This document shows positions 31,899 through 54,370 of a DNA stretch of 64,000 nucleotides, piece after piece. Position 1 is the first letter of the stretch. Every line of letters starts with the position of its first letter. The stretch is from Verrucomicrobium spinosum DSM 4136 = JCM 18804. GTDB lineage: Bacteria > Verrucomicrobiota > Verrucomicrobiia > Verrucomicrobiales > Verrucomicrobiaceae. The notes under the pieces were generated by a model. That model was not told the origin of the DNA and made no database searches. It saw nothing but the letters and a program-made list of their open reading frames with translations. The DNA lies in the NCBI RefSeq assembly GCF_000172155.1, contig NZ_ABIZ01000001.1, positions 1,488,001-1,552,000 on the forward strand, written 5' to 3'. A program made the translations under genes and the position numbers.

Positions 31899-34349
31899 AT
31901 GCCCCCACGCTTTGTAGTTGTTCTTACCCTCTTGAGCCTGCTGCCTGCATCGCTGTATTCAGACACGATTGTGGCCAAAGGCAGCGGCAACTGGCATGAT
32001 CCTCTCATCTGGGATCCTGAGTTCAGACCCCTTACGGGCACGAACGGAAGTGACAGTGTTCTGATCGGCACGGATGAGAACGGTGTGGCGCGGATCGTGA
32101 CCTGGGTGGCCGGGACCAGCGGGGGAGTGGGCAACACCAATTCCACGAATGGGGCGAGCGCTGACTTCGGTGTCGATAACGGCAATACCATCACCGTGGA
32201 TGGTGGGATCCTCGCCCACACCAAGGGCACGAACTGGGTGCGCATCGGCAACTGGGGTGAAGGCACTCTGGATATCAAGGACGGCAAGGTGTTTTTCCCC
32301 GTGGGCGAGGTCCACGTGGGGACGCACGGGACTGCGGCAAATGGGATCATCCGCATCGGTGACGGCACAGGGGCGGCGGGTTCCGCAGTGATGAACTTGT
32401 GGGCCACGGCGGATGGCAACTGGAGCGGGCAGACCACCGCGCTGAACCTGGGCAAGCAGCAGAGCGCAACCTTCTATGGCAGCGCGGGATTCATCACCAT
32501 TGAATCCGATGGCTTGCTGGAAGGTGGCGCTCATACCACGACGTGGGACGACACCAAAAAAGTTTGGAATTACAACCAGAGCGTCACCCGCATCGGCTTC
32601 TACCCCTCCGCAGTGGAGAGCGTGTTGTTGATCAAGGCCGGAGGGCGGTTCAACGCCCGTGGCACGGTGGAGATGGGGTCAGCCGGAGCGTTGAACGGGA
32701 TGACGTCCAAGGGGCTGCTGCATCTGGACGGGGAGGGGGCGCTGATGACGATGGACTTTGGCGAATTGAACATCGGGCGGGATGGCGTGGGACGCATGAT
32801 CATCGAGAACTCCGCCCAGTTCATCAAGAGTACCAACGCCCTGGACACCACCAGCGGGGTGATTCCGAAGGGATTTGGAAACAACCTTGGCAGGGCCGCC
32901 ACCGGGGCCGGCACGCTTACCATCCGTACCAATGGCAAGTTCATCCGCGATACGGGCGGGAACGTGGGGGATTTCTACATCGGCGCGAACGGGCAGGGGA
33001 CCATTTATATTGAAACCGGTGGGGAGTTTATCAACCGCTCCACGAACTGGGACTGGATCGCCGTGGCCGCAGGCAGCGTGGGGAAGGTGTATGTGAGCTC
33101 GGGCGGCCTGTACAGCGTGACCACCGGGGCCAACATCGTGGTGGGCCGGGATGCGGCCAATGCCACGCTGGCGGCGGCATCGGGGTTAATTGAAATAGAC
33201 GGCGGATCCCTGGTCAGTGGCGGGGATGTGCACATCGGGCAGGACGGGAGCGGCACCCTCCGTCTGATCTCCGGCCGGGCGGAGATGAACAAGCTCTCCA
33301 TGGGCCGCGGTGCGGGCACCAGCCTGGTGGAGGTGCAGAGCGGGGAGATGCTCATCAAGGGGAACCTTTTCGTCGCGGGGGACACGGGCGACTACTCCAC
33401 GAACACGAGTCTCGGCACGGCCACCTTCAACCAGAGCGGCGGCACCGTCACCGCCACGAACGCCCTCTCCATCGGTTTGGGCACGAACCACACCGGCACC
33501 GTAAACCTCACTGGCGGCGAGATGTACCACAAGGTGAGCGACGTCACCGTGGGGGAGAAGGGCACCGGGTACTTCTACGTCGGAGCCAATGCGAAGTTCT
33601 ATGACGAGGCCACGGCAAGCGATGCCTATCTGTTCGTCGGCCGGTTGAATGGTTCCCAGGGCACCATGATCGTGGACGGCTATGTGGAGAAGCAGAATGC
33701 CAGCGTCCGCGTGGGCCATGGCAATGATGCCGCCGGCACGGAGAACAACACCACCGGGCGTGGCTTGCTGGGGGGCTCTGGCACCATCAAGTCCCCCGGC
33801 GGCGTGTACATTGGCAGCTATGGCACCCTCACTGGCGGCACCATGACCTCTGTGGGTGCGCTCAGCATCCAGGGGAATCTGAACCTCGTCACCAATACCG
33901 GGGCCGCCTCGCAGAGCACGCTCTTTGTGAACTTCGACAGCTCCAGCCCCCTGGGCGCAGACCGCATCATCGTCACCGGTGAGATCTATGTGGACGGTGC
34001 CCGCATTGATGGCACCTGGGGCGGCGGCGAGACCGGGCTGGAAAGCCGCTACTGGCTCGTCCTCAGTGATACCGGCCTGGGCCTCTCTGACTTCTTCACG
34101 AACATGGTGTGGGACTCCGACCACTACCTGGCCTCTGACTACTCGAACATGGGCGCGGACGGCTTCGTCAACATCGGCGGCATGGACTACGCCATGTTCT
34201 ACCAGGCGGACTTTGACACCGGCGCCCTCACGGGAGGGAATGACCTCATGCTCTCCGCCATGGGGGCGGTGCCTGAGCCGGGTATTTCCTCGCTCGCCGT
34301 CCTGGGTCTCACCTGCCTCCTCATGCGCCGCCGCCGCACCCGCCGGTAA
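31899..34349 (+). CDS. PEP-CTERM surface protein with beta-helix repeats, passenger of cassette 1
   Basis: 816 residues. A signal peptide (residues 1-22, VVLTLLSLLPASLYS) is followed by many imperfect Gly/Thr-rich strands such as VRIGNWGEGTLDIKDG, LNIGRDGVGRMIIENS and VHIGQDGSGTLRLISG, which suggest a parallel beta-helix as in autotransporter passengers. The C-terminus has the PEP-CTERM signal: VPEPG, a hydrophobic helix (ISSLAVLGLTCLLM) and the RRRRTRR tail. By family knowledge PEP-CTERM proteins are cut by an exosortase and reach the surface or matrix. It lies 39 bp upstream of cassette gene A1. Function beyond structure is unknown. Confidence 0.88.
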   Translation: MPPRFVVVLTLLSLLPASLYSDTIVAKGSGNWHDPLIWDPEFRPLTGTNGSDSVLIGTDENGVARIVTWVAGTSGGVGNTNSTNGASADFGVDNGNTITVDGGILAHTKGTNWVRIGNWGEGTLDIKDGKVFFPVGEVHVGTHGTAANGIIRIGDGTGAAGSAVMNLWATADGNWSGQTTALNLGKQQSATFYGSAGFITIESDGLLEGGAHTTTWDDTKKVWNYNQSVTRIGFYPSAVESVLLIKAGGRFNARGTVEMGSAGALNGMTSKGLLHLDGEGALMTMDFGELNIGRDGVGRMIIENSAQFIKSTNALDTTSGVIPKGFGNNLGRAATGAGTLTIRTNGKFIRDTGGNVGDFYIGANGQGTIYIETGGEFINRSTNWDWIAVAAGSVGKVYVSSGGLYSVTTGANIVVGRDAANATLAAASGLIEIDGGSLVSGGDVHIGQDGSGTLRLISGRAEMNKLSMGRGAGTSLVEVQSGEMLIKGNLFVAGDTGDYSTNTSLGTATFNQSGGTVTATNALSIGLGTNHTGTVNLTGGEMYHKVSDVTVGEKGTGYFYVGANAKFYDEATASDAYLFVGRLNGSQGTMIVDGYVEKQNASVRVGHGNDAAGTENNTTGRGLLGGSGTIKSPGGVYIGSYGTLTGGTMTSVGALSIQGNLNLVTNTGAASQSTLFVNFDSSSPLGADRIIVTGEIYVDGARIDGTWGGGETGLESRYWLVLSDTGLGLSDFFTNMVWDSDHYLASDYSNMGADGFVNIGGMDYAMFYQADFDTGALTGGNDLMLSAMGAVPEPGISSLAVLGLTCLLMRRRRTRR

Positions 34350-34388
34350 TACGCCGCGGAGTCTTTGAAATAACTTTGCCCTTGCCTG

Positions 34389-37300
34389 ATGAAGACCCCC
34401 TTCTCACATCCGGATCGCAAACGCCCGCACCCGCCGCGTGGCATTGCCCTCATCATGGTGCTGGTGGCCGTGGCCGTGGTGGCCATGCTCGTGCTCGCCT
34501 TCCTGGCGGAGGTGCGCACAGAGCACCGCTCCGCCTCCGCCTACTCGAACATCACGGAGGCGCGCACCCTCTCTGAGCTGCCGGTGAACATGGCCATCGG
34601 CCAGATCCGCCGCGCCACAGAGCAGAACGGCCTGGAGAAGACCTGGGCCTCCCAGCCCGGCATGATCCGCGTGTTCGGCACCGAGTCGGATGTGCAGAAC
34701 CACAGCGTGCGCGCCAAGACTGTGGCGCTGTACAAGCTCTACTCAGACGACGCCATGGTCGTCACCCCGCCCAATGCCACCGGCACCGCCAACGGCATGG
34801 CGCTGAATACGGTGAAGTCCGCCATCAACACGGATGTCGGCGATCTCGCCACCTGGCAGACCGTGCCCGGCCTGTATGTGGACATGAATGAGCCCGCCGC
34901 CGTCATGGCCCCTGGGGCGGACCGCGTGCAGACCGTCTTCCCCATCAGCGATCCCCGCGCCGTCTTCGCCCGCAACGGCGGGCTGCCCGTGGATGGCTAC
35001 AAGGTGGATGGCAACGCCGTGCCCGGCACCGTGGCCCCCACAAGTGTGGATGATGTGAGCACCCGCCTGCCCATGCCGGTGAAGTGGATGTATGTGCTGG
35101 CAGATGGCCACGTGCTCGTGCCCACGGGCGGGAACAAGGAGGACGGCCTCACCTTTGGCGGCAACGGCGCGGTCGCTCCCACCAGGCAGAACCCCATCGT
35201 CGGGCGCGTCGCTTTCTGGACGGATGATGAGAGCACCAAGATCAATGTGAACACCGCCACCGAGGGCTCAGCATGGGATGTGCCCCGCTTCTTCAATGGC
35301 ACCACGGCCCGGTTTGCCCGCTACCAGCCGGCGCAGAATGAATACTCCCGCTACCCCGGGCATCCTGCGCAGACGGCGCTCAGCCCCGTGTTCCAGGCGT
35401 TTGGCCAGCAGCTCGTGGTCAGCCCCGCGCTGAGTGACACGCAGCTCGCCACCGTGCTGCAGCGCTACCACCAGATCAGCCCGCGCGTGCCCTGGGGCGG
35501 CAGCTATGGCGGGACGAAGATGCCCTCCGTCGTGCTCGTGCCGGACAAGGACGACCGCCTCTACACCACGCTGGATGAGCTCGTTTTCAACCGGAACCGC
35601 GGCATGCAGGATCCCGCGCTCACGCAGCAGGACATGGCCACCGCGCGGTTTTTCCTCACACCCCACAGCCGCGCCCCGGAGCTGAATCTCTTCAACCAGC
35701 CGCGTGTCATGCTCTGGCCCATCTCTGCCGAGCCGACTGAGCGCAACGCGAAGGACAAGCTCCTTGCCTTCGTCGGCACCGGCGGTGGCAAGCCGTGGTA
35801 CTTCACCCGGCTGAAGAACTTCAAGACCGTGGATGATGCCGGCACGGGGCAGAAGATCCGCGGGGATCTGGACCTGGACAGCTCCTCCGTCACCGGTGCC
35901 CTGGCGCGGAACCGCCAGCTCTATGAGAACCACCTCGTCCCTCTCACCGGCGGCACCGGCGGCGGCGGGCAGGCGCGGGACATCCCCGGCTTCGGAGGGA
36001 ACTTTGCGGCCAAGTACACCGTGCCCCGTCGCAACCAGATCCTCACAGAGATGGTGGACTTCATGCGCTGGTCTGTGAACAGCTACAGCACCGGGCTGGC
36101 CCCCACCTACACCTACCTGCCGCCGCGCGTGGGCGACCGCCGGGGCGAGTCCTCCGCCGTGCCGCTGGTTCCAGGAAATGATACCAAGGGCTTCGGCCGC
36201 TTCAACACCCTCTCAGAGGTCGCCCTCGTCTTCATGGCGACGAACAAGAACCCAGACACGGGCGCGACGACGCGCATGCAGGCCTTCCTGGCGCTGGAGC
36301 CGTTCAACCCCACGTCCGGCGCGCCGGGTGCGACGTCGAACATGCGCTACCGCATCACCGGGCTCAATACCCTGGGGGTGAACGGGCGCTCCATGGCCTT
36401 CCCCGCCGTGGACACCATCCGCTGCAACACCGCTGCCGGCTATCTGGACTCCGCCGGGGCCACGGCGTTCTCCGGCTTTGCCTCCCAGTTCAAGAAGGCC
36501 AATCTCAGCTCCACCGCGGCCGACCAGTTCGCCACCGCCACGCGCCAGATGGCGCGGAACAACGAGGACAACAACTTCCCCTTCTACAGCGGCTTCGTCA
36601 CCACCGGCACGGCCACGGAGTTCAACTTTGACGGCGGCAGCTTCACCATTGAGATCCTGAGTGGTTTCCCGAAACCCGAGGAGGCCGAGGTCATCCAGAC
36701 CCTGCACATCACCTTCCCGCCCGCCACGCTCAAGGTGCCCCGCCTGGTGAATGAGGACTTCAACAACCTCACCAAGCGCACCCAGGGTGACGCGAACAGC
36801 TTTGTGAAGACGCTCATCCAGGATGGCGACATCACCCGCAGTGTGGAGATCGATGTGAACGGCCCGACCAGAGGGGACCTGCGCATTCTCTCCGCCATGC
36901 GGGACGTGCCCGCCACCTGGTACACCCCGCACCCGCGCTATGCGGACAAGGAGGTGGAGCGCCTGCACTTCCTGCGCCAGGGCAACCAGATGGTGTACGG
37001 CCAGTTCGGCCCCGGGGACTCTGCGAGCGGTCCGCTGGGCCTCTCCCGCTCGGATCTGCGCGCGGCCACTGTGAACACCGCCGGCACCCTGGTGAAGGGC
37101 GTCTGGTATGGGCGCGACTCCATCCCTGCGGTCATGCGCGGGCAGGACGGCGTGTCCAACTCCCTCGGCCGCCCCGGGGACTTCGACAACGGCGCCGGCC
37201 GCGTGGAGGACGGCCCCTACATCAACAAGGCGGATGAGAACAACGTGGTGACCAACAGCCAGGCGGAGGACGGTGACCTCGGTTACTTCAGCCGGCACGG

Positions 37301-38321
37301 TTTCGGCGTGGAGAACGGGCTGAGTTTCAGCCCGAACCGCCAGATCACCTCTGCCGTGGCCTTCGGCTCGCTGTCCTCCGGCATCTATGGCAGCCAGGCC
37401 ACCCCGTCCCATCCGCACCAGCCCTGGCAGACCCTCCTCTTCTGCCCCAATCCCGCCTCCCGGTCCACCCCCGCGGGTCAGGAGCCAACTGAGCTGGATC
37501 ACGAGGGCTTCAAGGGCCCGCGGGACCACCTCTGGCTGGACCTCTTCTGGATGCCCGTGGTGGAGCCCTACGCCATCAGCGAGTCCTTTGCCACCGCCGG
37601 CAAGGTCAACATGAACACCCAGATGCTGCCCTTCCGCCACATCGAGCGCCACACCGGGCTCCATGCCGTGCTCAAGCCCGTGCAGCTCAGCGCTATTTCA
37701 CCGAACTCCGTGGGCGGCACCACCCCCAACGGGTACAACAGCGCCGGCGGCACGAACTACAAGGAGGGCGCCATGCACCGCTACGAGCTCTACTATGATG
37801 TGAACCGCGCCGAGACGTTGAAGGGCTTCACGAAGCGGTTCGACACCGGCGACATCTTCCGCTCCGCCTCGGAGATCTGCGAGATTTTCCTCGTACCCCA
37901 GCGGCGCAGCGGCGTGACCTACAACACGGACGCCGCCCCGCCCCCCACCACCTATGAGGACATGGTGAGCTGGTGGAACGGCGCTCTGAATGCGGCAGAT
38001 GCCTTTGAGCCCACCGGGGACAACAGCCGCGAGGCCCCGTACAACCAGCTCTACCCGCGCCTCACCACCCGGTCGAACACCTTCACCGTCCACTTCCGCG
38101 TGGAGACGCTGCAAAAGGCCCGCAGCACCCGGGTGGACCGCTGGGTGGAGGGGGCAGACCTCCCCACCTCCAGCCACCGCGGCTCCGCCACGCTGGAGCG
38201 TTACCTCGATCCCCAGGACCCGGAGCTGGCCGAGCTCACGAACAGCACCCCCAGCCACAGCCAGAGCTGGGACCGCTACTACCGCTTCCGCATCATCGAA
38301 CGCAAGACCTTTGCCCCATGA
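34389..38321 (+). CDS. Verru_Chthon cassette protein A (first copy), giant GspK-like protein
   Basis: 1310 residues. After a basic leader comes a prepilin-like segment RGIALIMVLVAVAVVAMLVL without Glu at +5, as in GspK, then an extracytoplasmic part. Blocks shared with the second copy include TWASQPGMIRV, GRVAFWTDDESTKINVNTAT, DVPRF, HSRAPELNLFNQPR, GKVNMNTQMLPF, DIFRSASEICEIFLVP and the final RKTFAP. The KINVNTA-like motifs recall the type II secretion protein K domain, but GspK has only about 320 residues. By homology with family naming it is cassette protein A; its role is unknown. The stop overlaps the next start (ATGA). Confidence 0.9.
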   Translation: MKTPFSHPDRKRPHPPRGIALIMVLVAVAVVAMLVLAFLAEVRTEHRSASAYSNITEARTLSELPVNMAIGQIRRATEQNGLEKTWASQPGMIRVFGTESDVQNHSVRAKTVALYKLYSDDAMVVTPPNATGTANGMALNTVKSAINTDVGDLATWQTVPGLYVDMNEPAAVMAPGADRVQTVFPISDPRAVFARNGGLPVDGYKVDGNAVPGTVAPTSVDDVSTRLPMPVKWMYVLADGHVLVPTGGNKEDGLTFGGNGAVAPTRQNPIVGRVAFWTDDESTKINVNTATEGSAWDVPRFFNGTTARFARYQPAQNEYSRYPGHPAQTALSPVFQAFGQQLVVSPALSDTQLATVLQRYHQISPRVPWGGSYGGTKMPSVVLVPDKDDRLYTTLDELVFNRNRGMQDPALTQQDMATARFFLTPHSRAPELNLFNQPRVMLWPISAEPTERNAKDKLLAFVGTGGGKPWYFTRLKNFKTVDDAGTGQKIRGDLDLDSSSVTGALARNRQLYENHLVPLTGGTGGGGQARDIPGFGGNFAAKYTVPRRNQILTEMVDFMRWSVNSYSTGLAPTYTYLPPRVGDRRGESSAVPLVPGNDTKGFGRFNTLSEVALVFMATNKNPDTGATTRMQAFLALEPFNPTSGAPGATSNMRYRITGLNTLGVNGRSMAFPAVDTIRCNTAAGYLDSAGATAFSGFASQFKKANLSSTAADQFATATRQMARNNEDNNFPFYSGFVTTGTATEFNFDGGSFTIEILSGFPKPEEAEVIQTLHITFPPATLKVPRLVNEDFNNLTKRTQGDANSFVKTLIQDGDITRSVEIDVNGPTRGDLRILSAMRDVPATWYTPHPRYADKEVERLHFLRQGNQMVYGQFGPGDSASGPLGLSRSDLRAATVNTAGTLVKGVWYGRDSIPAVMRGQDGVSNSLGRPGDFDNGAGRVEDGPYINKADENNVVTNSQAEDGDLGYFSRHGFGVENGLSFSPNRQITSAVAFGSLSSGIYGSQATPSHPHQPWQTLLFCPNPASRSTPAGQEPTELDHEGFKGPRDHLWLDLFWMPVVEPYAISESFATAGKVNMNTQMLPFRHIERHTGLHAVLKPVQLSAISPNSVGGTTPNGYNSAGGTNYKEGAMHRYELYYDVNRAETLKGFTKRFDTGDIFRSASEICEIFLVPQRRSGVTYNTDAAPPPTTYEDMVSWWNGALNAADAFEPTGDNSREAPYNQLYPRLTTRSNTFTVHFRVETLQKARSTRVDRWVEGADLPTSSHRGSATLERYLDPQDPELAELTNSTPSHSQSWDRYYRFRIIERKTFAP

Positions 38322-38875
38322 CCCCCCGCCCCCCTGCCGCCATCGTCACTGCATCCACCCGCCCCGCGCGGGGCTTCTCCCTGCCGGAGGTGGCCCTCGC
38401 CATGGGCATCGCCGCCACCGCCCTGCTCACGCTCATCTCCCTGCTGCCCTTTGGCCTGGACACCCTGCGTGACTCCAGCAACAAGCAGGCAGAGGCCCGC
38501 ATCCTGCAGACCGTGATGGACCGCTACCAGACCGGCGTCTGGCTGGATGAGTCCGCCACCGGCGGCAGCCGCAGCGTGCAGATGCAGGACTGCACCCTCT
38601 TCTTCGACCAGACCGGGGCCGAAGTGGCCTCTGCCACCGGGGTGGACTGCAACTACGCCGTGCAGGTGAAGGTGGGCACAGAGCCCTCCCTCCAGGGTGA
38701 CAACGAGGCCAACCCCTACCTGCGCCAGCTCCGCGTGCGCGTGACGGACCGCCTGAGCAACTACACGCAGTCCCTCGCGGATGGTTCTGGGAAATACCGG
38801 GAGCGCAGCGTGTGGATCGCCCTGCTTGAACAAACCGGCCCGCTGACGGGGGCTGCCGCCGTCTCCTCCCTGTGA
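38318..38875 (+). CDS. Verru_Chthon cassette protein B (first copy), GspI/PilV-like pseudopilin
   Basis: 185 residues. ARGFSLPEVALAMGIAATAL at about 22-41 is a class III prepilin signal: Gly at -1, Phe at +1, Glu at +5 and a hydrophobic helix, so prepilin peptidase should cut and methylate it. The soluble part holds a conserved TLRDSSNKQAEARILQTV stretch, shared with the second copy as TLREASNTTACARIVQAV. By size and order it resembles GspI. The gene overlaps A1 by 4 bp and the following gene by 4 bp, so translation is probably coupled. Confidence 0.9.
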   Translation: MTPRPPAAIVTASTRPARGFSLPEVALAMGIAATALLTLISLLPFGLDTLRDSSNKQAEARILQTVMDRYQTGVWLDESATGGSRSVQMQDCTLFFDQTGAEVASATGVDCNYAVQVKVGTEPSLQGDNEANPYLRQLRVRVTDRLSNYTQSLADGSGKYRERSVWIALLEQTGPLTGAAAVSSL

Positions 38876-40582: not shown

Positions 40583-40676
40583 GCTGAATGAATTTTTCCG
40601 GGGAAACGGGGAATCACGTGCCGCGCACTGCCTCCGCTCCCCCCCTACGCAGCCCTGCCCTCCTCTCACTCCCGCC

Positions 40677-46600: not shown

Positions 46601-47963
46601 TGCCAACGTCCATGCAGGTGGAGCCCGGATTGACTCCAACGGCTTTGACATCACCATCAGCCAGGCGCTCCTCGCGCCTGAGGGCAGCGGCGTCAGTGCC
46701 ATTGCCGTCACCAGTGGGGGCGCAGGCTATGTGGACACGCCTGTGGTAGTGCTCAGCGGGGGCTCCGGCACGGGTGCCACCGCGGTGGCCACGGTGGTGA
46801 ATGGCGTGGTGACGGGCTTCGTCATCACCAATCCCGGCACCGGCTATGTGGAGGGGGATGTCCTCACCGTCTCCCTGCATGGCGGCGGTGCCACCACGGC
46901 CGCCTCAGCGGGCACGGTCACCTTTGCCGCCAATACGAGCGGCGGCCTGACCAAGACGGGCGCAGGCACGCTCACGCTTTCAGGAGCCAACACCTACACT
47001 GGCGGCACCACCGTCAACGAGGGCGTCCTCGCCTTGGGTGCCTCCGGCGTGCTGGCTGACACCGGTGCGGTGACCGTGAATGGCTCCACGGCGGCGCTTA
47101 GCCTGGGGGAAAACAACGAGACCGTGGCGGCCGTGACCCTTGCTGACGGCAAGATCGAAGGCACCACCGGAGAGCTCAGCGCCTCGTCCTATGACATGAG
47201 GAATGGTCTCGTGGATGCCATCCTGGCCGGCAATGCGGCACTTGCCAAGACCACCACCGGCACGGTGCGTGTCTCCACAGCCAATACCTACACCGGTGGC
47301 ACCACCATCAGTGCGGGCTCTTACATCATTGAGAACACGACCGGCAGCGGCACGGGCACGGGCGATCTCACGGTATTGAGCGGGGCCCGCTTCGGCGGGG
47401 CAGGCCGGGTTCAAACGGCCGCCAACAGAAACATCACCGTGGCCTCCGGAGCCACCCTCCAGATTGGCAAGGTGGGCGCCTACGGCGATTCCGCGGGACA
47501 GAGCCTGACCCTGAGCAACAGCGGCACCGGCATCATCAGCCTGCAGGGCACGATGGAGTTCGACATTGTGGACAACTACGGGGGCGACTTCAACCTCGAT
47601 GCCCCGCTGCTCACGAACGATGTGCTCGTGCTGGAGAGCGACTCTGCCATCGTGCTCAGCGGTACGCTGAAGGTTTCAGACCTCACGGAGAGTGCGGAGT
47701 TCTGGTCAGAGATGGACAAGTGGCAGCTCATTGACTGGTCGAACGTGGTGGTGGATGGCAACCCCAACGCCGGCAAGTTCACCGGTGGCTTCGGCGGCAT
47801 GATCCTGCCGAACCTGGGCGAGGACTACAGGTGGCAGATCTCCACGGACCTGAACGGCCTCTACATCCAGATCGTCGTCGTCCCTGAGCCGGGCCGGGTG
47901 GTGCTCCTGGTGCTGGCCTTCGCAGGTGTACTCCTGCGCCGCCGCCGTCGCTGTGCCCAGTGA
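40677..47963 (+). CDS. Giant autotransporter-like beta-strand repeat PEP-CTERM protein, passenger of cassette 2
   Basis: 2428 residues. An unusually long Arg-rich leader precedes a signal helix (CLIAAALFSVVGRSPAA, about 41-57). About 12 copies of the autotransporter-associated beta strand repeat follow, of the form LTKTGAGTLTLSGANTYTGG plus TTVNEGVLAL. Between 500 and 700 the repeats give way to unique segments. The C-terminus reads VVPEPGRVVLLVLAFAGVLL then RRRRRCAQ, a PEP-CTERM signal. There is no outer-membrane autotransporter barrel, so export must use other machinery. The role may be adhesion or matrix formation. It lies 34 bp upstream of cassette gene A2. Confidence 0.92.
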   Translation: MPSSRRQPVVSHVSPLRRGGAPPCCPGGYDRRWAAGRGGVWCLIAAALFSVVGRSPAATGAWDGSQDAAWSSAANWDTNAVPGAGDSAVFNSAGHANTVISLGAGVTLQTLTFDTVHGSSYVLGTGAAGSQSLTLGNGGSVMMSAALLNNQLINGALILGTDATAQGYTITNNHTTAQLNFAGPVTGGSGGVAGVKTLTLTGSGGGTISGVISNGGSSALAVTKTGSGTWVLAGANTHTGATTVTAGVLRLAHANAVQNSTLTNNVANGVRFGTGVLKFNVGGLAGNSALALTDVGGSAVTLTVGGNDENTTYSGVMSGTGGLIKTGSGNLTLSAINTFSGNTVVNEGTLTLSAGGRNGAVTGTLTVNAGALVELRAVNALGYNDGVRVNTVYLNGGTINHAVTGDQGYRTNFVLTGGFMTSTSGAAFHFTNNFGIFSMASSTTSVVSANVNARDQGPVIFNTALGTTASGVDLLVSGNVTGAAGIAKLGAGTLHLTGTNTYTGATIIRGGLLRIGDGTTGSLNGTTGTALTFASTGAIEFKEAADRSQGMGALNFTGGDGSVTSTYAGSGNTTLTFASFTRAAGATANFVVSGGLNGTTNKIVVTTGLTPGSFIDQGTFFGGSRYAFYAAEGYIRELQYGADAGAFTFAGGTSLTGTHVQTTDAVTAQSTATFTTLNLNGNTNFTLATGSIVTVNGILKSGNVAGGATISGGTGIQAASGAELVIRADQAGDSLAITTNILANGASSLTKSGLGTVAITGANTYTGATTVNAGVLRATTNATALGAGALALAGGELQLANNTALNFGRNTTVTGDARLTSDRLALGAGVTHTLGTLSIGGQRLVIAGGANVNSGTAGITFGAVTFTDAPTFHVVNPTAGGTTLLTLGAVTNAGFSATITGNGNVAQSAVMDGAGGLILGVAGGATYSGTTTLNRANTYTGETVVNSGTLEISTSGGTSALRGVITVNAGGVLKLSANDSLGYNTDLAVKTINLVGGTVTNGFANQGYITNFVLTGGTMASTNNGSYHFSSGYGITTLGSTSTSLISSRIVVRGGSLNFNIAAGAVASGVDLLVSNVISEANSGSGITKSGAGLMHLTAANTYAGILTLNGGTLRAATAGINGTSTTNGITFNGGTLQADTGGISTAKIINLTGAGTFDTNGNDSTLSGNVVGLGSFTKTGAGVLTLSGAGNTFGGGLTVTGGTLLVDNANQGVLGTGTVTMGAGATLDLNGNSQTTGLLKTYDDASAISIRSNKASVATGLTISGTGSETFGGSISNGLSSSFSLTKEGLGTQTLSGNNTYTGATQINAGLLRITGRLGNTAVQVGTSGALGGFGSIAGLVSLSGPGAAINLQDGVTGTLTLSAGLTLTGGSALFFELGNNASDQIALTGGTYTFVNGIAMINLLNLTGYGAGSYNLITGASGISLANFELAAPSLAGYNLSLGVTGGNTLTLNVFISNSPTVAYWKGDVNGLWNANSGGNSNFTTDAGGAADPGQLVDGTTALTFSATGAANESNTTLGADTAIKSLTISTPNAVGIGGANVLTIADAAGITIHAGAGALTLSASEVALGLSQTWTNNSGNAAVISSIISGARTLTLAGTGVFTFSGPSTYSGGTILSDGTTLNINHGGSGAGNSAIGTGTLTINGGTLDNTSGGSVTVGTNNAQIWNGNVVFAGSNDLNLGTGAVMLTGNRMVTTQGSATLTLGGGLSGTGFGFTKNGTGTLVLGGQSTYTGITTVNEGMLRVTGTINALNTANTGQITVGDVANVNAILSIEGGTVNATKSATPSVSIGQAAGSRGFMKLSSGVLNVTGQLHLGRGQGSYAALTMTGGTLTAGNWFVTGANNDRAVMNHTGGDVFMNANGMTIAAGGAGAIGVYNIGGTATYSALSGSGRIYVGENGMGIMNLTGTASVNIASNGVQMGQNAGSSGVLNLLGGTLTTSRVSKGAGTAVFNFNGGLLRAYAASTAFMTGLTSANVHAGGARIDSNGFDITISQALLAPEGSGVSAIAVTSGGAGYVDTPVVVLSGGSGTGATAVATVVNGVVTGFVITNPGTGYVEGDVLTVSLHGGGATTAASAGTVTFAANTSGGLTKTGAGTLTLSGANTYTGGTTVNEGVLALGASGVLADTGAVTVNGSTAALSLGENNETVAAVTLADGKIEGTTGELSASSYDMRNGLVDAILAGNAALAKTTTGTVRVSTANTYTGGTTISAGSYIIENTTGSGTGTGDLTVLSGARFGGAGRVQTAANRNITVASGATLQIGKVGAYGDSAGQSLTLSNSGTGIISLQGTMEFDIVDNYGGDFNLDAPLLTNDVLVLESDSAIVLSGTLKVSDLTESAEFWSEMDKWQLIDWSNVVVDGNPNAGKFTGGFGGMILPNLGEDYRWQISTDLNGLYIQIVVVPEPGRVVLLVLAFAGVLLRRRRRCAQ

Positions 47964-47997
47964 TCCGACCGAAGCAACTTCAGCCGAAATGACTGAC

Positions 47998-50900
47998 ATG
48001 AAAAAAAGCCTCATCATCCGGAAGTGGCAGCAACGTCAGGCTGGGATGGCGCTGGTGATGGTGCTCTCCATTGTGGCCTTGCTGATGGGCCTCGTCCTGG
48101 CCCTGCTCTCCATGGGCTCGTCTGAGGCGCGGTCCGCCTCCGCCTTTAGCCAGAGCTCGCAGGTGCGCAGCCTTACGGACATGCCGGTGAGCATCGTCAT
48201 GGGCCAGGTGCGGGAGGCGACTTCTGGTCTGGATATGGCGGCCACGTGGGCCTCCCAGCCGGGCATGATCCGCGTCTATGGCACGGCGGCTGGCACTGTC
48301 GCAGGCAGGTCCAGGATGATCTCGGCGTGGAGACTCTACTCCTCAGACAAGATGTCGGAATCGGGCGAAAACTTCAACGCCTTGAATGAGGCTGCCACCC
48401 TCGCTCAGTGGAAGGAGAAGCCCGCCCAGTTCACGGATCTCAATGAGCCCGTGGCGCGGTTGGATGCCCGCGGCAGCATCCATCGTGTCTATCCTGTGCT
48501 GGATGCCGGTGCGCTCCAGGCCATCGATGGGGCTACCACAGGGAAGGTGGCGGGATTCGGCCTTTCCTCCTCGGTGGCCGTGCCGGGGGCGACGGCAGCG
48601 CAGCCCCTGCCCATGCCGGTACGCTGGCTCTATGTGCTGGAAGACGGGCGCCTGGTGGTGCCGCAGGGCGGGGAGGGGGGGCAGGCCACGTTCCAGAACG
48701 ACGTGGTCACAGGAAATAATCCCATCGTGGGGCGCATCGCCTTCTGGACGGATGACGAGAGCTGCAAGGTGAACATCAACACCGCGGGCGAGGGCACCGG
48801 CTGGGATGTCCCTCGGGTGGCAGGCTGGTCAGACAGGAACTTTGCCTACTTCGTGCCGGCGCAGAATGAGTTCCAGCGGTACCCCGGGCACCCAGCCATG
48901 ACGAGCATGAGCACGGTGCTGCAGGCGTTTGACTCCAGGTACGCGTACAGACTGCCTCAGATTCAGAGTGATGGCACGCTCGGCAACAAGGCGGAGCACA
49001 AGGCCTGGCTCGGGAGCATCTACGATCTGCTGCCCCGTGTGCAACTGGGTGCCTCAGGCGAGGGCTCCATGGGGGGCTCAGAGGTGGTCACCGCGGCCAA
49101 CGGCATCCCGTTGAAGCGCGAGCGTCTCTTTGCTTCGGTGGATGAGTTCTTCTACGGCTCCGGCTATGACCCGGCCACGCAACAACGCCTGCCCAACCTC
49201 TCCGGCGGTGCCGTGGATGCTGCGGACCTTGACACGGGGCGCTTCTTCCTCACCGCCCACAGCCGGGCTCCTGAGGTTAACCTCTATAACCGCCCTCGCA
49301 TCTCCCTCTGGCCTCTCCAGTCGGAGACGGCCAAGCGCACGGCCAAGGACAGGCTGCTGGCCTTCTGCGCCACCTCGGCAGGGCAGTTGGGCGCCTTCCA
49401 GCGGGCCTCCACCTGGGAGAATGACACGAACAAACAGGGCTCCTCCCAGAGCCCGACGGCGGACTTCCAGCTTCCGGGAAATCAGAGGCTCTTCAGCTAC
49501 TTGCAGAAGCTCACCAAGACAGGCATCCCCGGCTTCGGTTCCCCGAGCTTTGATGACAAGTATGGTTCCTTGAACCGCAACCAGATCCTGCTCTCCATGT
49601 TCGACCTGGTGCGCTGGGGCGTGAATGCCAGCAACCCCTATGAGACGCCCAAGTACCACTACATTCCTCCCCGGTCCTACACCGGTCTGAATCCGGAGTT
49701 CCTGGCTGAGGCGTCTGCGGTGCCGGTCGTGGCCGAGGGCACGGCGTATGAGTCCTTTGGCACGAAGTTGAAGGCCTTTGGCCGCTTTCCCACCGTCATT
49801 GAGGCCTCTCTCATCTTCATGGCCACTGAGGTGGACACCCTGCCGGACGGCAGCATCAAGGACACCGCCCCTGCGGACAACCGGTCAGACAAGACCCGGC
49901 GCATGCGGGCCTTTCTGGTGCTCCAGCCCTTCACCCCTGTCATTGGCATGCCGCCCTATTCCCCCAGCGTGCGCTACCGGATCAGAGGGATGGAGGCCTG
50001 GAAGGTCAACGGCCAGCCTCTGGGTTTTGGCTCCTCACTCGTGAGCCGCGTGTGGACTCCCGCCGGAGCCACGGGGGAGGGCGGGCACTCCACCGCCTAC
50101 ACCTCCTTTCATTCCCAGTTCTTCAAGGCGCGAGGGAATAACGTCAAGACGGTCGCCGTAGGGGGCGTGGGCACCGATGAAACGGCATCCTTCCCGTTCG
50201 TCAGTGTGGAGGTGGATGTGTCTGCGCAGGGCGCCTTTCAGTTCACCGGCGGCCCCATCAGCATAGAGGCCCATGTCGGCGAGGGCACGGTCGGGCAGCT
50301 GGATGACGCCACCCTCATTCAAACGGCCACCATGAACTTCACGACGCCAAGCACTGCCTGGCCCGTGCCGAGCGTGCGGGTGGGCGCTGGCATGCCTTCC
50401 AATGCCAACTGGACCGTGGCCAAGGAGTGCATGGACCTGCAGGCCCGCTTCAACAAAAACAATGTGAAGGACTACCTAATCCTGCTGGGGGACACCGTCC
50501 GCTCGGTGATCGTCAATGCCCAGAACACCAACACCAAAGGCGATCTCCGCCTGCTCTCCGCCATGCGGGACATCCCTGCGGACTGCTACAGGGTGCACCC
50601 GGACTACAACAGCCCGACCAAGGAGGAGGCGCAATGCCTCCGCTCTGCCGGTACGCCATCCGCCGGCTACGGTCGCAGTTATCTCTCCACCAACACCTAC
50701 AACACCGCGGGGAAACAACACATCTGGCAGATCTCCGGCTACACCATCGGGGCGGGCAAGACGGTGACGAAGTCCTACGGCCTGCTGAAGGATGTGCCCT
50801 ACTGGCAGGACTGCCAGCCTGCTGTGCCCTACCAGCTCGACGGCGCCTACAACGCCGCCAACCGCCCGGGCGACTGGGACACGGGCATGGGCCGGATCGA

Positions 50901-52029
50901 AGACGGTCCCTATATCAACAAACCCGATGACGGAGGGGTCACGGGTGACATGGCCGGCACGCAGACGGGATACTTCGACCGCGAAGGCAGCACCCAGGCG
51001 GCTGATGGCAGACATTATTCCCCGAACCGCCAGATCGCCTCCGCCGTGGCCTTTGGCTCCCTGCCCACGGGCATCCACCCCGTGCCCGCCAACAGCAATC
51101 GCGTGGGGCCGTGGCAGACGCTCCTCTTCTGCCCCAATCCTCCCTCCCGGGTTCGAGCCTCCACCCTGGAGCCGTTGCAGACAGACCACTGGGGCTTCCG
51201 CCCGCCGCGGGATCATTTGCTCCTCGACTTCTTCTGGATGCCGGTGGTCGAGCCCTACGCCATCAGTGAGCCGTTCTCCACAGCGGGCAAGATCAATCTG
51301 AACACCCAGATCATGCCCTTCACCTTCATCAAGCGGGAGACCGGCATCCACGCGGCCCTGCGCAGCGTGCGGCTCAGCGCCCTGCCGTATGAGCTGGCCT
51401 GGGCCAGGAATGCCCCCACCTCCGGAGCCACCTCTGACGAGTCCCAGGAGAACTACAAGTCCTGGCAGGACTGGCTGAAGTTTGAGACCGTCTATGAGGT
51501 GAATGCGGAGGAGACCATGAAAGGCTTCCGCCAGCGGTTCGACCAGGGGGACATCTTCCGCAGCGCCTCGGAGATCTGTGATGTTTTCCTCGTACCCAAG
51601 CCCATGGCGGGCCGCACCTACTACCCCCGCACGGGTGGCCTGCCCAGCTCCTCGCCCACGTATGAGAGCATGGTCACCTGGTGGAATGGCAGCGCCGCCA
51701 CGCAGAAGGACGGCTTTGAGCTGACGGGGGACAACGTCCGCGAGTCCCCCTACAACCAGCTCTACCCACGCCTCACCACCAAGTCGAACATCTTCACCGT
51801 GCACTACCGGGTGCAGGTGCTGAAAAAAGCCCGCTCCACCGCCCCGGCCGAGTGGGACGATGCGCGGGATGCCATCACCTCTGAGCAGCGGGGCTCGACC
51901 CTCATCGAGCGCTACATCGACCCCAATGATCCGGACCTGCCGAACTTCCTCGACAACCCGCTGCAGAACGGATCCCTGGATGACCACTACCGCTTCCGTG
52001 TCATCACGAAGAAAACCTTCGCCCCATGA
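47998..52029 (+). CDS. Verru_Chthon cassette protein A (second copy), giant GspK-like protein
   Basis: 1343 residues from the ATG at 47998 (MKKSLIIRKW); the frame is open to 47926, inside the preceding gene. The prepilin-like segment QAGMALVMVLSIVALLMGLV again lacks Glu at +5. The same blocks as in A1 appear in the same order: ATWASQPGMIRVYGT, GRIAFWTDDESCKVNINTAG, HSRAPEVNLYNRPRI, GKINLNTQIMPF, DIFRSASEICDVFLVPK and the last KKTFAP. Divergence between the copies is large outside these blocks, so they are not a recent duplication. It overlaps B2 by 4 bp (ATGA). Confidence 0.9.
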   Translation: MKKSLIIRKWQQRQAGMALVMVLSIVALLMGLVLALLSMGSSEARSASAFSQSSQVRSLTDMPVSIVMGQVREATSGLDMAATWASQPGMIRVYGTAAGTVAGRSRMISAWRLYSSDKMSESGENFNALNEAATLAQWKEKPAQFTDLNEPVARLDARGSIHRVYPVLDAGALQAIDGATTGKVAGFGLSSSVAVPGATAAQPLPMPVRWLYVLEDGRLVVPQGGEGGQATFQNDVVTGNNPIVGRIAFWTDDESCKVNINTAGEGTGWDVPRVAGWSDRNFAYFVPAQNEFQRYPGHPAMTSMSTVLQAFDSRYAYRLPQIQSDGTLGNKAEHKAWLGSIYDLLPRVQLGASGEGSMGGSEVVTAANGIPLKRERLFASVDEFFYGSGYDPATQQRLPNLSGGAVDAADLDTGRFFLTAHSRAPEVNLYNRPRISLWPLQSETAKRTAKDRLLAFCATSAGQLGAFQRASTWENDTNKQGSSQSPTADFQLPGNQRLFSYLQKLTKTGIPGFGSPSFDDKYGSLNRNQILLSMFDLVRWGVNASNPYETPKYHYIPPRSYTGLNPEFLAEASAVPVVAEGTAYESFGTKLKAFGRFPTVIEASLIFMATEVDTLPDGSIKDTAPADNRSDKTRRMRAFLVLQPFTPVIGMPPYSPSVRYRIRGMEAWKVNGQPLGFGSSLVSRVWTPAGATGEGGHSTAYTSFHSQFFKARGNNVKTVAVGGVGTDETASFPFVSVEVDVSAQGAFQFTGGPISIEAHVGEGTVGQLDDATLIQTATMNFTTPSTAWPVPSVRVGAGMPSNANWTVAKECMDLQARFNKNNVKDYLILLGDTVRSVIVNAQNTNTKGDLRLLSAMRDIPADCYRVHPDYNSPTKEEAQCLRSAGTPSAGYGRSYLSTNTYNTAGKQHIWQISGYTIGAGKTVTKSYGLLKDVPYWQDCQPAVPYQLDGAYNAANRPGDWDTGMGRIEDGPYINKPDDGGVTGDMAGTQTGYFDREGSTQAADGRHYSPNRQIASAVAFGSLPTGIHPVPANSNRVGPWQTLLFCPNPPSRVRASTLEPLQTDHWGFRPPRDHLLLDFFWMPVVEPYAISEPFSTAGKINLNTQIMPFTFIKRETGIHAALRSVRLSALPYELAWARNAPTSGATSDESQENYKSWQDWLKFETVYEVNAEETMKGFRQRFDQGDIFRSASEICDVFLVPKPMAGRTYYPRTGGLPSSSPTYESMVTWWNGSAATQKDGFELTGDNVRESPYNQLYPRLTTKSNIFTVHYRVQVLKKARSTAPAEWDDARDAITSEQRGSTLIERYIDPNDPDLPNFLDNPLQNGSLDDHYRFRVITKKTFAP

Positions 52030-52541
52030 AAATCGTCCTTAGACCCTCGAACCCGGACCTGCGCAGTGCCTTCTCCCTGGTGGAGACCACCATCGCGGTC
52101 GGCATCGCCGCCACGGTGCTGGTGGCTCTGATCGGGCTCATCCCCGTGTCCCTCGATACCTTGCGGGAGGCCTCCAACACGACTGCCTGCGCACGCATCG
52201 TGCAGGCAGTCTCCTCGGACTACCGCATGCGCGACTGGGGAGACATCCTCCAGCAGCAACAACAGGGGGCCTCCCGGGACTACTGCTTTGACGCCCAGGG
52301 CACCCGGGTGAGCACGGGTGACCCCTCCACCGTCTTTACTGCGCGAGTCACCGTGGCCAATGCCCTGCCCCTTCCGGGCATGATGGCCACGAATTCACGC
52401 TTGAAGGCGGTGCAGATCCTCGTGACGGGCAACGCCGACGCCGCACTCGCATTTCAAAATCCCAAGTCCTGCAAGCGGGCGCAGACCCTCCTGGCCCAGA
52501 CGGGCAAGACCGCCAGCCCCGCAGCCGTGGCTTCGAACTAG
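52026..52541 (+). CDS. Verru_Chthon cassette protein B (second copy), GspI/PilV-like pseudopilin
   Basis: 171 residues. The prepilin signal SAFSLVETTIAVGIAATVLV starts at residue 14, with Ala at -1 and Glu at +5. The conserved LTLREAS-like stretch follows (SLDTLREASNTTACARIVQ). The C-terminus QTLLAQTGKTASPAAV is similar in length and position to the end of B1 (LLEQTGPLTGAAAV). Same predicted fate as B1: inner-membrane insertion, prepilin-peptidase processing and assembly in a pseudopilus tip. A 15-bp gap leads to C2. Confidence 0.88.
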   Translation: MKIVLRPSNPDLRSAFSLVETTIAVGIAATVLVALIGLIPVSLDTLREASNTTACARIVQAVSSDYRMRDWGDILQQQQQGASRDYCFDAQGTRVSTGDPSTVFTARVTVANALPLPGMMATNSRLKAVQILVTGNADAALAFQNPKSCKRAQTLLAQTGKTASPAAVASN

Positions 52542-52556
52542 CCGCCACCCCTCTTC

Positions 52557-53687
52557 ATGGACACCGCAGCTTCCGGCTCCCTTCGCAGATTGGCCCCGTC
52601 CGCTTTCACGCTGGTGGAGCTCCTCGTCTCTGTAGGGGTGCTTGCGATTTTGATGATGGTGCTCACGCAGGTCCTTTCAGACACCCAGAAGACCTGGGGG
52701 CGGGCCAAGGCGCGTGTGGAGGAGTTCCGCGAAGCGCGCGCGGCCTTTGAGGCCATCGCCGCCCGCCTGTCTCAGGCCACGCTCAATTCCTACTGGGGCT
52801 ACAAGCTGGACGCAGGCGGCGACCCCGTGCTCTACCAGCGCCAGTCAGAGCTGCACTATGTGAGCGGTCCCGCAACCACGCTGCTGGGCAGTACCGTGCC
52901 TGCGGCAGGTCACGCCCTGTTTTTCCAGGCTCCGTTGGGGGAGAATCTTGATCCCGGCACGGGCAACCCCTCATCCACTGAGCCCTATGGACTGGAGAGC
53001 ATGCTCAATGCCTGGGGCTGGTATGTGACCTATGAGAGTGACATGGAGCGTCGGCCCGCTTTCCTCGATGACAAGGAGCCCCATCCCGAGCGCAAGCGCT
53101 TCCGCCTCATGGAGTTTCGTCAGCCAACGGAAAAGCTGCCCCTCTATCAACTGGTCACGCCAGCCTCAGGCGGTGCCGCCACCCCCAAGGTGCCGTGGAT
53201 CGAGGCGCAGACCTCGCAAGCGGGGCTCTATGACTGGTTCCGTGTGTACCTGGCGGCGGACTCCCAGCCGGTGGCGGAGAACATTCTCGCCATCTTCGTG
53301 CAGCCTGTGTGGCCTCTGCCCGGCCAGGACACCGGGGCGGACACTACGGCCGCACCGAACTATTTGTACGACACCCGTCGGTACCAATGGCCGGAGTCAT
53401 CCGGCCTCGCGGAGCGCAGCCGCCATCAGCTCCCACCCATGGTGCGGCTGACGCTGGTGGCCCTGGATGAACGCGACTGGGCCCGCCTCGACAGCACGGG
53501 CACGGATGCCCTCGCCGTGCAGTTGCGCTCTCTGGCCAATACAAAAGTGTTCACCACCTCCTCCCAGTATGAAGCGGATGTGAAGCGGCTTGAGACGGAG
53601 CTGGTCAGCCTGAAGCTGGGCTTCCGCGTCTTTTCCACGGCCGTGCAGATCCCGGCAGCCAAACTGATGTCCACCCGTGAGAACTAG
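52557..53687 (+). CDS. Verru_Chthon cassette protein C (second copy), GspJ-like pseudopilin
   Basis: 376 residues. The prepilin signal PSAFTLVELLVSVGVLAILM has Ala at -1 and Glu at +5. Shared blocks with C1: EEFREARAAFEAIAARLSQ with TLNSYWGYK, HALFFQAPLGE, WGWYVTYESDMERRPAF, RFRLMEFRQP and SRHQLPPMVRLTLVALDE. Near the end a helix-forming stretch (YEADVKRLETELVSLKLGFR) precedes the stop. It overlaps D2 by 11 bp. Confidence 0.9.
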   Translation: MDTAASGSLRRLAPSAFTLVELLVSVGVLAILMMVLTQVLSDTQKTWGRAKARVEEFREARAAFEAIAARLSQATLNSYWGYKLDAGGDPVLYQRQSELHYVSGPATTLLGSTVPAAGHALFFQAPLGENLDPGTGNPSSTEPYGLESMLNAWGWYVTYESDMERRPAFLDDKEPHPERKRFRLMEFRQPTEKLPLYQLVTPASGGAATPKVPWIEAQTSQAGLYDWFRVYLAADSQPVAENILAIFVQPVWPLPGQDTGADTTAAPNYLYDTRRYQWPESSGLAERSRHQLPPMVRLTLVALDERDWARLDSTGTDALAVQLRSLANTKVFTTSSQYEADVKRLETELVSLKLGFRVFSTAVQIPAAKLMSTREN

Positions 53688-54312
53688 CCGCCTCCCGTTC
53701 CAATCCTCCTCCTCCTCCTCCCGCGCCGCCTTCACCCTGGTGGAGATGATGGTGGTCATCGCCATGGTGGCGCTGCTGGTGGCCATGTCCACGTTCTTCG
53801 TCGGCGGCGCCCTGGCCGCCCAGCAGCTCGCTTCTTCCTCGAACCGGTTCACCCACGAGCTCGCCTTCGCCGCCCAGCTGGCCGCCCGGGAGAACCGCCT
53901 GGTGGGCGTGCGTTTCCTGAAGCGTCCCCAGGACGCGGGTGCTCCGGGCGTCACCTATTTCCAGGGCTGGCAGCTCATGGTGCCAGACCGCATCTCCGGC
54001 AAATGGAAGCCTGCAGGGGAGGTCCAACTGCTGGAGAAATCCGCCGTCATGATGGAGGGGGCCACCTGGTCCACCCTCCTGGCCCGCCCCTCTCTGGTAC
54101 CTGCCTCGACCGTGGACGACCCCGACACCACGCCCCCTCTTTTCGCCTTCAAACCCGAGGGCGGCACCACCCTCCCGCGCGGAGCCACCGACCCCAAGTG
54201 GTGCATCACCCTGGCCCTGGCCAAAGACGTAGAGCAGACCCCAGGAGCCCTCCCCGCCAACTACCGCACCCTGGTCCTGAATGCCCACACCGGCGCAGTG
54301 GTGCTTTACTGA
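53677..54312 (+). CDS. Verru_Chthon cassette protein D (second copy), GspH/FimT-like pseudopilin
   Basis: 211 residues from a GTG start in the end of C2. The prepilin signal RAAFTLVEMMVVIAMVALLV has Ala at -1 and Glu at +5. RFTHELAFAAQLAARENRLV and VRFLKRP follow as in GspH/FimT proteins. The C-terminus NYRTLVLNAHTGAVVLY aligns with D1. It is the last gene of the cassette region; the 176 bp to the IS1634-family element contain heptanucleotide repeats and no gene. Confidence 0.9.
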   Translation: MRTSRLPFQSSSSSSRAAFTLVEMMVVIAMVALLVAMSTFFVGGALAAQQLASSSNRFTHELAFAAQLAARENRLVGVRFLKRPQDAGAPGVTYFQGWQLMVPDRISGKWKPAGEVQLLEKSAVMMEGATWSTLLARPSLVPASTVDDPDTTPPLFAFKPEGGTTLPRGATDPKWCITLALAKDVEQTPGALPANYRTLVLNAHTGAVVLY

Positions 54313-54370
54313 GGAAGTGAAAAGTAGTAAGTAAAAAGTGAAAAGTGGAGGAGGTCGGTGAGTGGTTGGC

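Follow-up and report, generated by a model that had tools for sequence, protein, structure and literature searches.

Verru_Chthon cassette proteins of Verrucomicrobium spinosum as candidate alternative tips of a shared type II secretion system

In this study, we analyzed a window of 64,000 nucleotides (nt) of Verrucomicrobium spinosum DSM 4136, the genome of which comprises 8.22 Mb on a single contig. The window contains two tandem units, in each of which the gene for a putative surface protein, the passenger P, is followed by four genes, A, B, C, and D, of the Verru_Chthon cassette families. With moderate confidence, we favor the explanation that A-D build alternative tips for the pseudopilus of a type II secretion system (T2SS), which are kept together with the gene of their cargo and are used by a shared T2SS. 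This explanation rests on the predicted folds of A and C, on the joint inheritance of A-D, on the presence of T2SS-type core operons elsewhere in the genome, and on the retention of passengers at orthologous cassettes.

A first-pass annotation of the window had described two same-strand P-A-B-C-D units with overlapping or nearly touching genes, and the list of open reading frames (ORFs) agrees with this description. The genes of unit 1 (P1-A1-B1-C1-D1) and unit 2 (P2-A2-B2-C2-D2), together with a transposase gene next to unit 2, are as follows (aa, amino acids):

31899-34349, + strand: P1, passenger 1, 816 aa, with an N-terminal signal-like stretch and a C-terminal PEP-CTERM
34389-38321, + strand: A1, Verru_Chthon cassette protein A, 1310 aa, TIGR02600 1610 bits; predicted GspK-like giant minor pseudopilin, fold via a homologue
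38318-38875, + strand: B1, cassette protein B, TIGR02598 208 bits; prepilin with Glu at +5, putatively GspI-like by elimination only
38872-39954, + strand: C1, cassette protein C, TIGR02599 444 bits; predicted GspJ-like minor pseudopilin, fold via its paralogue C2
39920-40582, + strand: D1, cassette protein D, TIGR02596 163 bits; GspH-like, GspH 40.1 bits (cut-off 80); its true start may lie further in, near 39971
40677-47963, + strand: P2, passenger 2, 2428 aa, with beta-strand repeats (PATR) and PEP-CTERM
47989-52029, + strand: A2, cassette protein A, TIGR02600 1572 bits; frame open from 47926, first ATG at 47989
52026-52541, + strand: B2, cassette protein B, TIGR02598 165 bits
52557-53687, + strand: C2, cassette protein C, TIGR02599 457 bits; modeled with a GspJ fold
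53677-54312, + strand: D2, cassette protein D, TIGR02596 275 bits; GspH-like, GspH 45.8 bits (cut-off 80)
54603-56417, - strand: IS1634-family transposase, next to unit 2, in a stretch missing from two close relatives

In unit 1, A1/B1 and B1/C1 overlap by 4 nt each, and in unit 2, the overlaps comprise 4 nt for A2/B2 and 11 nt for C2/D2. Both passengers had been regarded as beta-repeat proteins with a PEP-CTERM. The PEP-CTERM exceeded the TIGR02595 cut-off at the C-terminus of P1 and P2, although for P1 it is weak (17.4 bits, cut-off 16; unlisted when P1 was scanned alone). P2 contains 12 PATR stretches (Pfam) and 11 TIGR02601 stretches, whereas Pfam and NCBIfam scans did not reveal any beta-strand repeat family in P1, and therefore the beta-repeat label is right for P2 only. 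An autotransporter (type V) barrel was found in neither passenger; the Pfam matches of P2 were confined to PATR, and P1 had none. The genome contains four exosortase matches, and thus both features expected of PEP-CTERM/exosortase cargo were found, i.e., a PEP-CTERM above the cut-off and a genome-encoded exosortase.

All 8 A-D proteins of the window passed the curated NCBIfam cut-offs of the Verru_Chthon families, the names of which, as had been stated before, carry no function. Among family members with at least 80 bits, a prepilin signal with Glu at position +5 was present in 69 of 69 B proteins, 87 of 91 C proteins, and 78 of 80 D proteins, as the first-pass annotation had recognized for the two units. 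It had also noted that A lacks Glu at +5 and carries a KINVNT motif, and this motif was found again in A. An unbroken hydrophobic segment was present in 106 of 112 A proteins (6 were unmatched), but this count is not a free test of the missing Glu because the pattern used for A excludes Glu by construction.

The four proteins resemble the minor pseudopilins GspH, GspJ, and GspK to different extents. C2 scored 23.3 bits with the GspJ equivalog family of NCBIfam (cut-off 64.85 bits; C1 was unlisted), and the two A proteins scored 30.4 and 21.5 bits with GspK (cut-off 130 bits). GspH was the nearest hidden Markov model (HMM) for both D proteins, again below its cut-off, and a NCBIfam scan of B1 and B2 gave no GspI match. 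Of the earlier equation of B, C, and D with GspI, GspJ, and GspH, the assignment of C is thus upheld by its predicted fold and that of D by its nearest family, whereas B could be GspI by elimination only. The cut-offs for GspH, GspJ, and GspK are strict for this phylum because the H, J, and K proteins of the genome's own core operons are also below them or unlisted. The D family was weakly matched by the GspH of one of these operons (35.6 bits, cut-off 70). In HMM comparisons with PDB sequences, A had no match at an E value of 1, B had weak mixed matches, C matched weakly to pilin N-termini, and D matched to pilin N-terminal helices.

Structure prediction and superposition, which had been proposed as a check, were performed with single chains. 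The model of C2 (alignment of 44 rows, pLDDT 87.7, pTM 0.82) matched eight T2SS entries with Z scores of 9.6-10.4 in VIA-align, namely 2ret_B, 3cfi_B, 3ci0_J, 9a1f_S, 5vtm_W, 6utu_H, 5bw0_C, and 3nje_B, which were taken as GspJ/EpsJ/XcpW-type by title and chain letter, in some cases by our own reading. Apart from two entries of a Thermus pilin that are discussed below, the next row had a Z score of 4.5. For A, a full-length homologue of 1061 aa was modeled (alignment of 64 rows, pLDDT 87.8, pTM 0.88). It matched GspK of the E. coli GspK-I-J complex (3ci0_K) with a Z score of 10.6 over 257 of 280 residues and a root mean square deviation of 3.8 (VIA-align); the next row, with a Z score of 4.8, was the beta-sandwich region of GH2 enzymes at about residues 492-723. 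Because the GspK alignment spreads across residues 29-1061 of the homologue, A looks like a GspK that has grown about fourfold, its scaffold swollen by insertions. The A genes of the genome encode 882-1700 aa (median 1327), versus 242 (cut by the locus end), 292, and 322 aa for GspK as called in the core operons. Residues 486-740, i.e., the sandwich and the part following it, are least conserved (means of 1.8 and 1.7 bits, compared to 2.2-2.7 elsewhere) and include the four largest insertion sites of A. The models thus show a predicted GspK fold for A and a predicted GspJ fold for C, and the tip identity of A-D is well supported.

The four proteins are inherited together. The similarity matrices of A-D agreed over 66 non-redundant complete cassettes (of 88), with Spearman coefficients of 0.40-0.66, and the best of 500 permutations did not exceed 0.28. 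Likewise, every A-D pair exceeded its 500 permutations for the 17 complete cassettes of V. spinosum. Gene order varies by lineage (ABCD, BCAD, BCDA, and DBCA), while the set is retained.

No secretin or T2SSE ATPase match was found within the cassettes. T2SS core parts had been expected elsewhere, and indeed three T2SS-type operons (L153, L154, and L155) were found, which contain genes for an ATPase, a GspF-like protein, several prepilin-like proteins, and a secretin. In L153 and L154, GspG was above its cut-off, the E, F, D, and K proteins matched below theirs, and some minor pseudopilins were recognized by position only. In L155, for which K and J alone were scanned, K was below the cut-off and J had no match. 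All three operons carry minor pseudopilin-like genes of their own; the cassettes thus lie outside the core operons and would add tips to machines that are already equipped. The A gene closest to a T2SS-type core operon by position, of all 27 in the genome, is a divergent one (L041); it lies about 6 kb from L153, both within about 3382-3411 kb, and a gene for a PEP-CTERM protein of 1621 aa is located 15 nt upstream of it.

A genome-wide count of cassettes and their neighbors had also been suggested. The 40 A matches in the genome of V. spinosum resolved to 27 A genes (28 rows, one of which is a piece of 82 aa of an interrupted gene). The TIGR02600 cut-off was exceeded by 24 of them, while the divergent genes 7440k, 756k, and 3402k were below it. 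For the linkage test, a PEP-CTERM gene (TIGR02595) was counted when it was within 800 nt of a cassette, and the result was compared to 5000 circular shifts. A PEP-CTERM neighbor was found at 19 of the 27 cassettes, whereas the shifts gave 2.3 on average and never more than 8, and thus the linkage is beyond chance. Long PEP-CTERM genes (at least 800 codons) were beside 17 of the 27 cassettes; the 24 short PEP-CTERM genes were beside 2 cassettes and showed no clear excess. From the side of the passengers, 17 of 63 PEP-CTERM genes adjoin a cassette (15 of the 39 long ones). The literature reports 65 PEP-CTERM genes for V. spinosum, compared to the 63 counted here (PMC1569441). One of the cassettes that lack a PEP-CTERM neighbor, 7534k, adjoins a gene for a protein of 1670 aa that combines a GH5 cellulase domain with a PATR repeat, and GH5 cellulase genes adjoin cassettes in three genomes. 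Such cellulases are a usual class of T2SS cargo.

The arrangement of the loci is not uniform. Contrary to an idea that we had considered, the passenger is not always at the A end; several passengers are at the D end. At 6.68-6.70, 7.37-7.39, and 7.61-7.63 Mb, A genes stand alone, and a B-C-D set is found apart from them at a distance of some 6 to 18 kb. At 6.69 Mb, the lone A gene and B-C-D are separated by two genes, of 740 and 424 aa, as if an insertion had split the cassette.

For a comparison with other genomes, 194 genomes of the phylum were drawn, including that of V. spinosum. An A protein above the cut-off was present in five of them, again including V. spinosum; 105 had some match, mostly to the N-terminal signal part. 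The other four genomes all contain GspG above its cut-off as well as PEP-CTERM proteins. In these four genomes, an extended match was present at 28 A places, of which 20, mostly the higher-scoring ones, were taken; another 11 matches that were weak or limited to the N-terminus were not included. Gene models were derived with a home-made gene finder, and therefore gene starts are approximate. PEP-CTERM was scored by a strict pattern in these loci and in those from named genera (see below), while the counts for V. spinosum are based on TIGR02595. Of the 20 loci, 11 have a PEP-CTERM gene that lies beside the cassette or forms a fusion with A. The fusion is found in L193 of genome G066, in which one open frame of 2038 aa (L193:5458-11574) contains a PEP-CTERM tail, a basic cluster, and then the prepilin signal of A. 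This A retains its own ribosome-site-like stretch and ATG, and the fusion may be real or a sequence error; if real, its product could be cut apart by exosortase and prepilin peptidase. The locus was counted among the 11 and given no further weight.

Between the 20 fetched and the 27 V. spinosum A genes, 10 reciprocal best pairs were found, with identities of 37-75%. The passengers of these loci were matched to 461 V. spinosum proteins from the fetched loci, 31 of which are PEP-CTERM or beta-repeat proteins; 20 spaced stretches of the V. spinosum genome were included in this database and in the insertion sequence comparison. In 7 of the 10 cases, the best match of the passenger was the passenger at the orthologous cassette (in L209 by a small margin, and in L204 in another orientation), in two cases it was second, and in one case there was no passenger. 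A homologue of P1 with 52% identity adjoins the orthologous cassette in another genus, and the GH5 cellulase is also among the passengers conserved between genera. Among the matches listed for orthologous cassettes, at least two other conserved neighbors were found. The passenger is thus the neighbor most often retained with the cassette between genera.

Loci from named genera were also analyzed, comprising the best 80 of 259, from which duplicates were dropped. In Verrucomicrobium sp., 8 of 13 loci had a PEP-CTERM or beta-repeat neighbor. In other genera, beta-repeat genes were enriched near cassettes (7 of 100 near genes versus 2 of 475, p 1e-4). Neighbor families were analyzed for 107 of 191 near genes and 115 of 279 distant genes. 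PATR (5 of 107) and GH130 (4 of 107) occurred near cassettes, and neither was in the top-25 list for the 115 distant genes. A broad reading of the surroundings as sugar-use loci was dropped because LacI-type domains were equally common near and distant (5 versus 6).

Unit 2 is a P-A-B-C-D block that was copied whole. The block from 40845 to 54313 (+ strand) has about 74% nucleotide identity to one P-A-B-C-D unit, which is located roughly 90 kb from it in V. spinosum and is also present in two relatives. Verrucomicrobium sp. BvORR034 and BvORR106 are close to V. spinosum. The homology extends from just inside P2 to the stop codon of D2, with one unaligned break near 41.7-42.1 kb. It is the distant unit, not unit 2, that is orthologous to the copies of the relatives, with 84-88% identity including the flanks. 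The two relatives that share unit 1 lack window positions 40583 to about 56600, a stretch that contains unit 2 and the IS1634-family transposase gene. A remnant of a group II intron (29072-30566, + strand) lies just upstream of unit 1; its reverse transcriptase and maturase domains are encoded in different frames, and behind them an RF00029 match is located at 30488-30566.

How might the cassettes act? A critical role in substrate recognition is ascribed to the tip of the T2SS (PMC6211770). Taken together with the export of MYXO-CTERM proteins via T2SS (see below) and the lack of a barrel in P2, this suggests that A-D would serve as alternative tips for a common core, with the neighbor as their usual cargo. 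In the putative mechanism, the tip genes would stay with the gene for a large exported protein, mostly a PEP-CTERM surface protein and now and then a cellulase. The passenger would be exported by Sec, and an exosortase would trim its PEP-CTERM tail. In the tip, the role of GspH would be taken by D, that of GspI by B, and that of GspJ by C, while A would serve as a giant GspK with its inserted variable beta-sandwich facing outward. The tip would bind the passenger, probably by means of A, and would prime a pseudopilus of shared GspG, and the shared GspE/F/D machine would push the passenger out. More tentatively, Verrucomicrobiota could possess a library of plug-in tips for a single T2SS machine or a small number of them, and each tip would be a GspHIJK set with a giant GspK the insert of which recognizes one exported protein; this could be the route for many PEP-CTERM proteins after trimming and for the cellulases of some lineages.

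Several results weigh against this explanation. Concerning the proteins, A-D pass no T2SS equivalog cut-off in NCBIfam, and therefore they are not filed as GspH, GspJ, or GspK equivalogs, but only resemble them. With weak profiles of three rows, the heads of A-D had no relation to the own GspG-K proteins, with which they share the N-terminal helix alone. The best row for C2 was the Thermus type IV-like pilin TTHA1219 (two entries, Z scores of 10.4-11.1), tied with the GspJ rows, and Foldseek gave no E value below 0.001 for the model of C2 or of the A homologue (GspK chain, E 0.29). Concerning the pairing, a cassette is missing at 46 of the 63 PEP-CTERM genes and a PEP-CTERM neighbor at 8 of the 27 cassettes, and several A genes lack B-C-D, three of which are head to head with a PEP-CTERM gene. 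The similarity of A was correlated with that of the passenger over 13 V. spinosum pairs (r 0.47-0.56, p 0.0002; one doubly counted shared passenger and one cut piece were dropped), but r decreased to 0.19-0.43 without two recent duplicates, and thus the correlation arises mainly through two recent duplications. The cassette in L195 of genome G066 has two passengers, one of which best matches a V. spinosum protein at L048, a locus without A. According to the first-pass annotation, it would speak against cargo-linked tips if most cassettes lacked a surface-protein neighbor; this is not the case in V. spinosum, but it is in the other named genera, in which only 10 of 59 loci had a PEP-CTERM or beta-repeat neighbor, neighbors were mixed, and PEP-CTERM alone was not clearly enriched (9 of 100 near genes versus 20 of 475, p 0.07). 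In summary, the earlier idea of a cargo-specific tip on a shared core retains its support from the folds, joint inheritance, core operons, and passenger retention, whereas the results on pairing speak against a strict one-to-one relation.

These results bear on three other explanations. The cassettes could encode extra GspHIJK tips for the shared T2SS that are interchangeable and raise its capacity or respond to conditions, the neighbor being merely co-regulated. The A genes without B-C-D, the passengers without cassettes, and the mixed neighbors in other genera would fit to this scenario. We nevertheless consider it unlikely, as orthologous cassettes retain the passenger more often than any other neighbor, as the matching passenger is in most cases top-ranked among those of V. 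spinosum, and as the most variable part of A is the inserted sandwich. Even less probable is that A-D form the tips of surface pili of a type IV-like kind, in which A would be a large tip adhesin and the passengers would be separate surface adhesins of the same setting. V. spinosum does contain type IV pilus-like loci with genes that by their appearance encode an ATPase, a PilC-like protein, and pilin-like proteins, and the very large A with its variable sandwich as well as the tied Thermus row for C would be in line with such pili. In contrast, among the structures listed for A, only GspK of the T2SS stood out, and GspG was above its cut-off in four of four other whole genomes, which were, however, chosen for having A.

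It is very improbable that passenger and cassette merely form a block that spreads by duplication or insertion and has no shared function. Unit 2 is indeed an additional copy with an IS1634 element beside it, and the correlation of passenger and A stems largely from duplicates. However, the linkage persists at orthologous cassettes with 37-75% identity of A, at which few other neighbors are shared.

The families have already been named, but the interpretation as alternative tips was not found in our searches of the open-access literature. The name Verru_Chthon was not found there, nor was PEP-CTERM together with pseudopilin or prepilin-type wording for Verrucomicrobi-. T2SS cargoes are described as having no common features and their recognition as unresolved in a 2023 review (PMC10128026), and the 27 paralogous A genes, most of them beside a candidate cargo, represent a natural experiment on this question. 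An outer-membrane route for PEP-CTERM proteins was merely proposed in 2006 (PMC1569441); if our explanation is true, it would provide such a route as well as a function for four named families. The passenger at L195 and the protein at L048 (V. spinosum, about 3072 kb), which are 48% identical over 1718 aa, are a naturally occurring case in which the need for a cassette could be tested.

Several known systems are related to the cassettes. In Verruconatronum alginivorum, a pulG-like pseudopilin with 67 homologues in one genome is reported, and a pseudopilin, perhaps not the same gene, is among the genes over-expressed on alginate (PMC13274419). Like these, the cassette genes are verrucomicrobial and have many copies in one genome; unlike the four-gene tip set, a single pulG-like gene is described in that account, with which we compared by description only. 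MYXO-CTERM proteins with myxosortase and GlyGly-CTERM proteins with rhombosortase are described as being trimmed at their tag in the membrane and then exported to the surface by the T2SS (PMC11980579), and the architecture of C-terminal sorting tags is also described in PMC3237569. The passengers share a C-terminal sorting tag with them, but tags and proteases differ, and the available parts of these accounts do not mention dedicated pseudopilins. The T2SS tip GspH-I-J-K itself (E. coli GspK-I-J, 3CI0; Pseudomonas XcpUVWX) likewise consists of four prepilins, with K, like A, lacking Glu at +5, and in the predicted models, the fold of C is that of GspJ and the scaffold of A that of GspK. The cassettes differ from it in the far greater length of A (882-1700 aa versus the 242, cut by the locus end, 292, and 322 aa of the own GspK proteins), in having no match to a secretin or T2SSE ATPase, in the number of 27 A genes versus three core operons, and in scores below the GspH, GspJ, and GspK cut-offs. 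Finally, the Verru_Chthon families A-D (TIGR02600, TIGR02598, TIGR02599, and TIGR02596) represent the same four-gene set, with 8 of 8 proteins above the cut-off; to these names without function, the present analysis adds a predicted fold, a linkage to candidate cargo, and copying as a unit.

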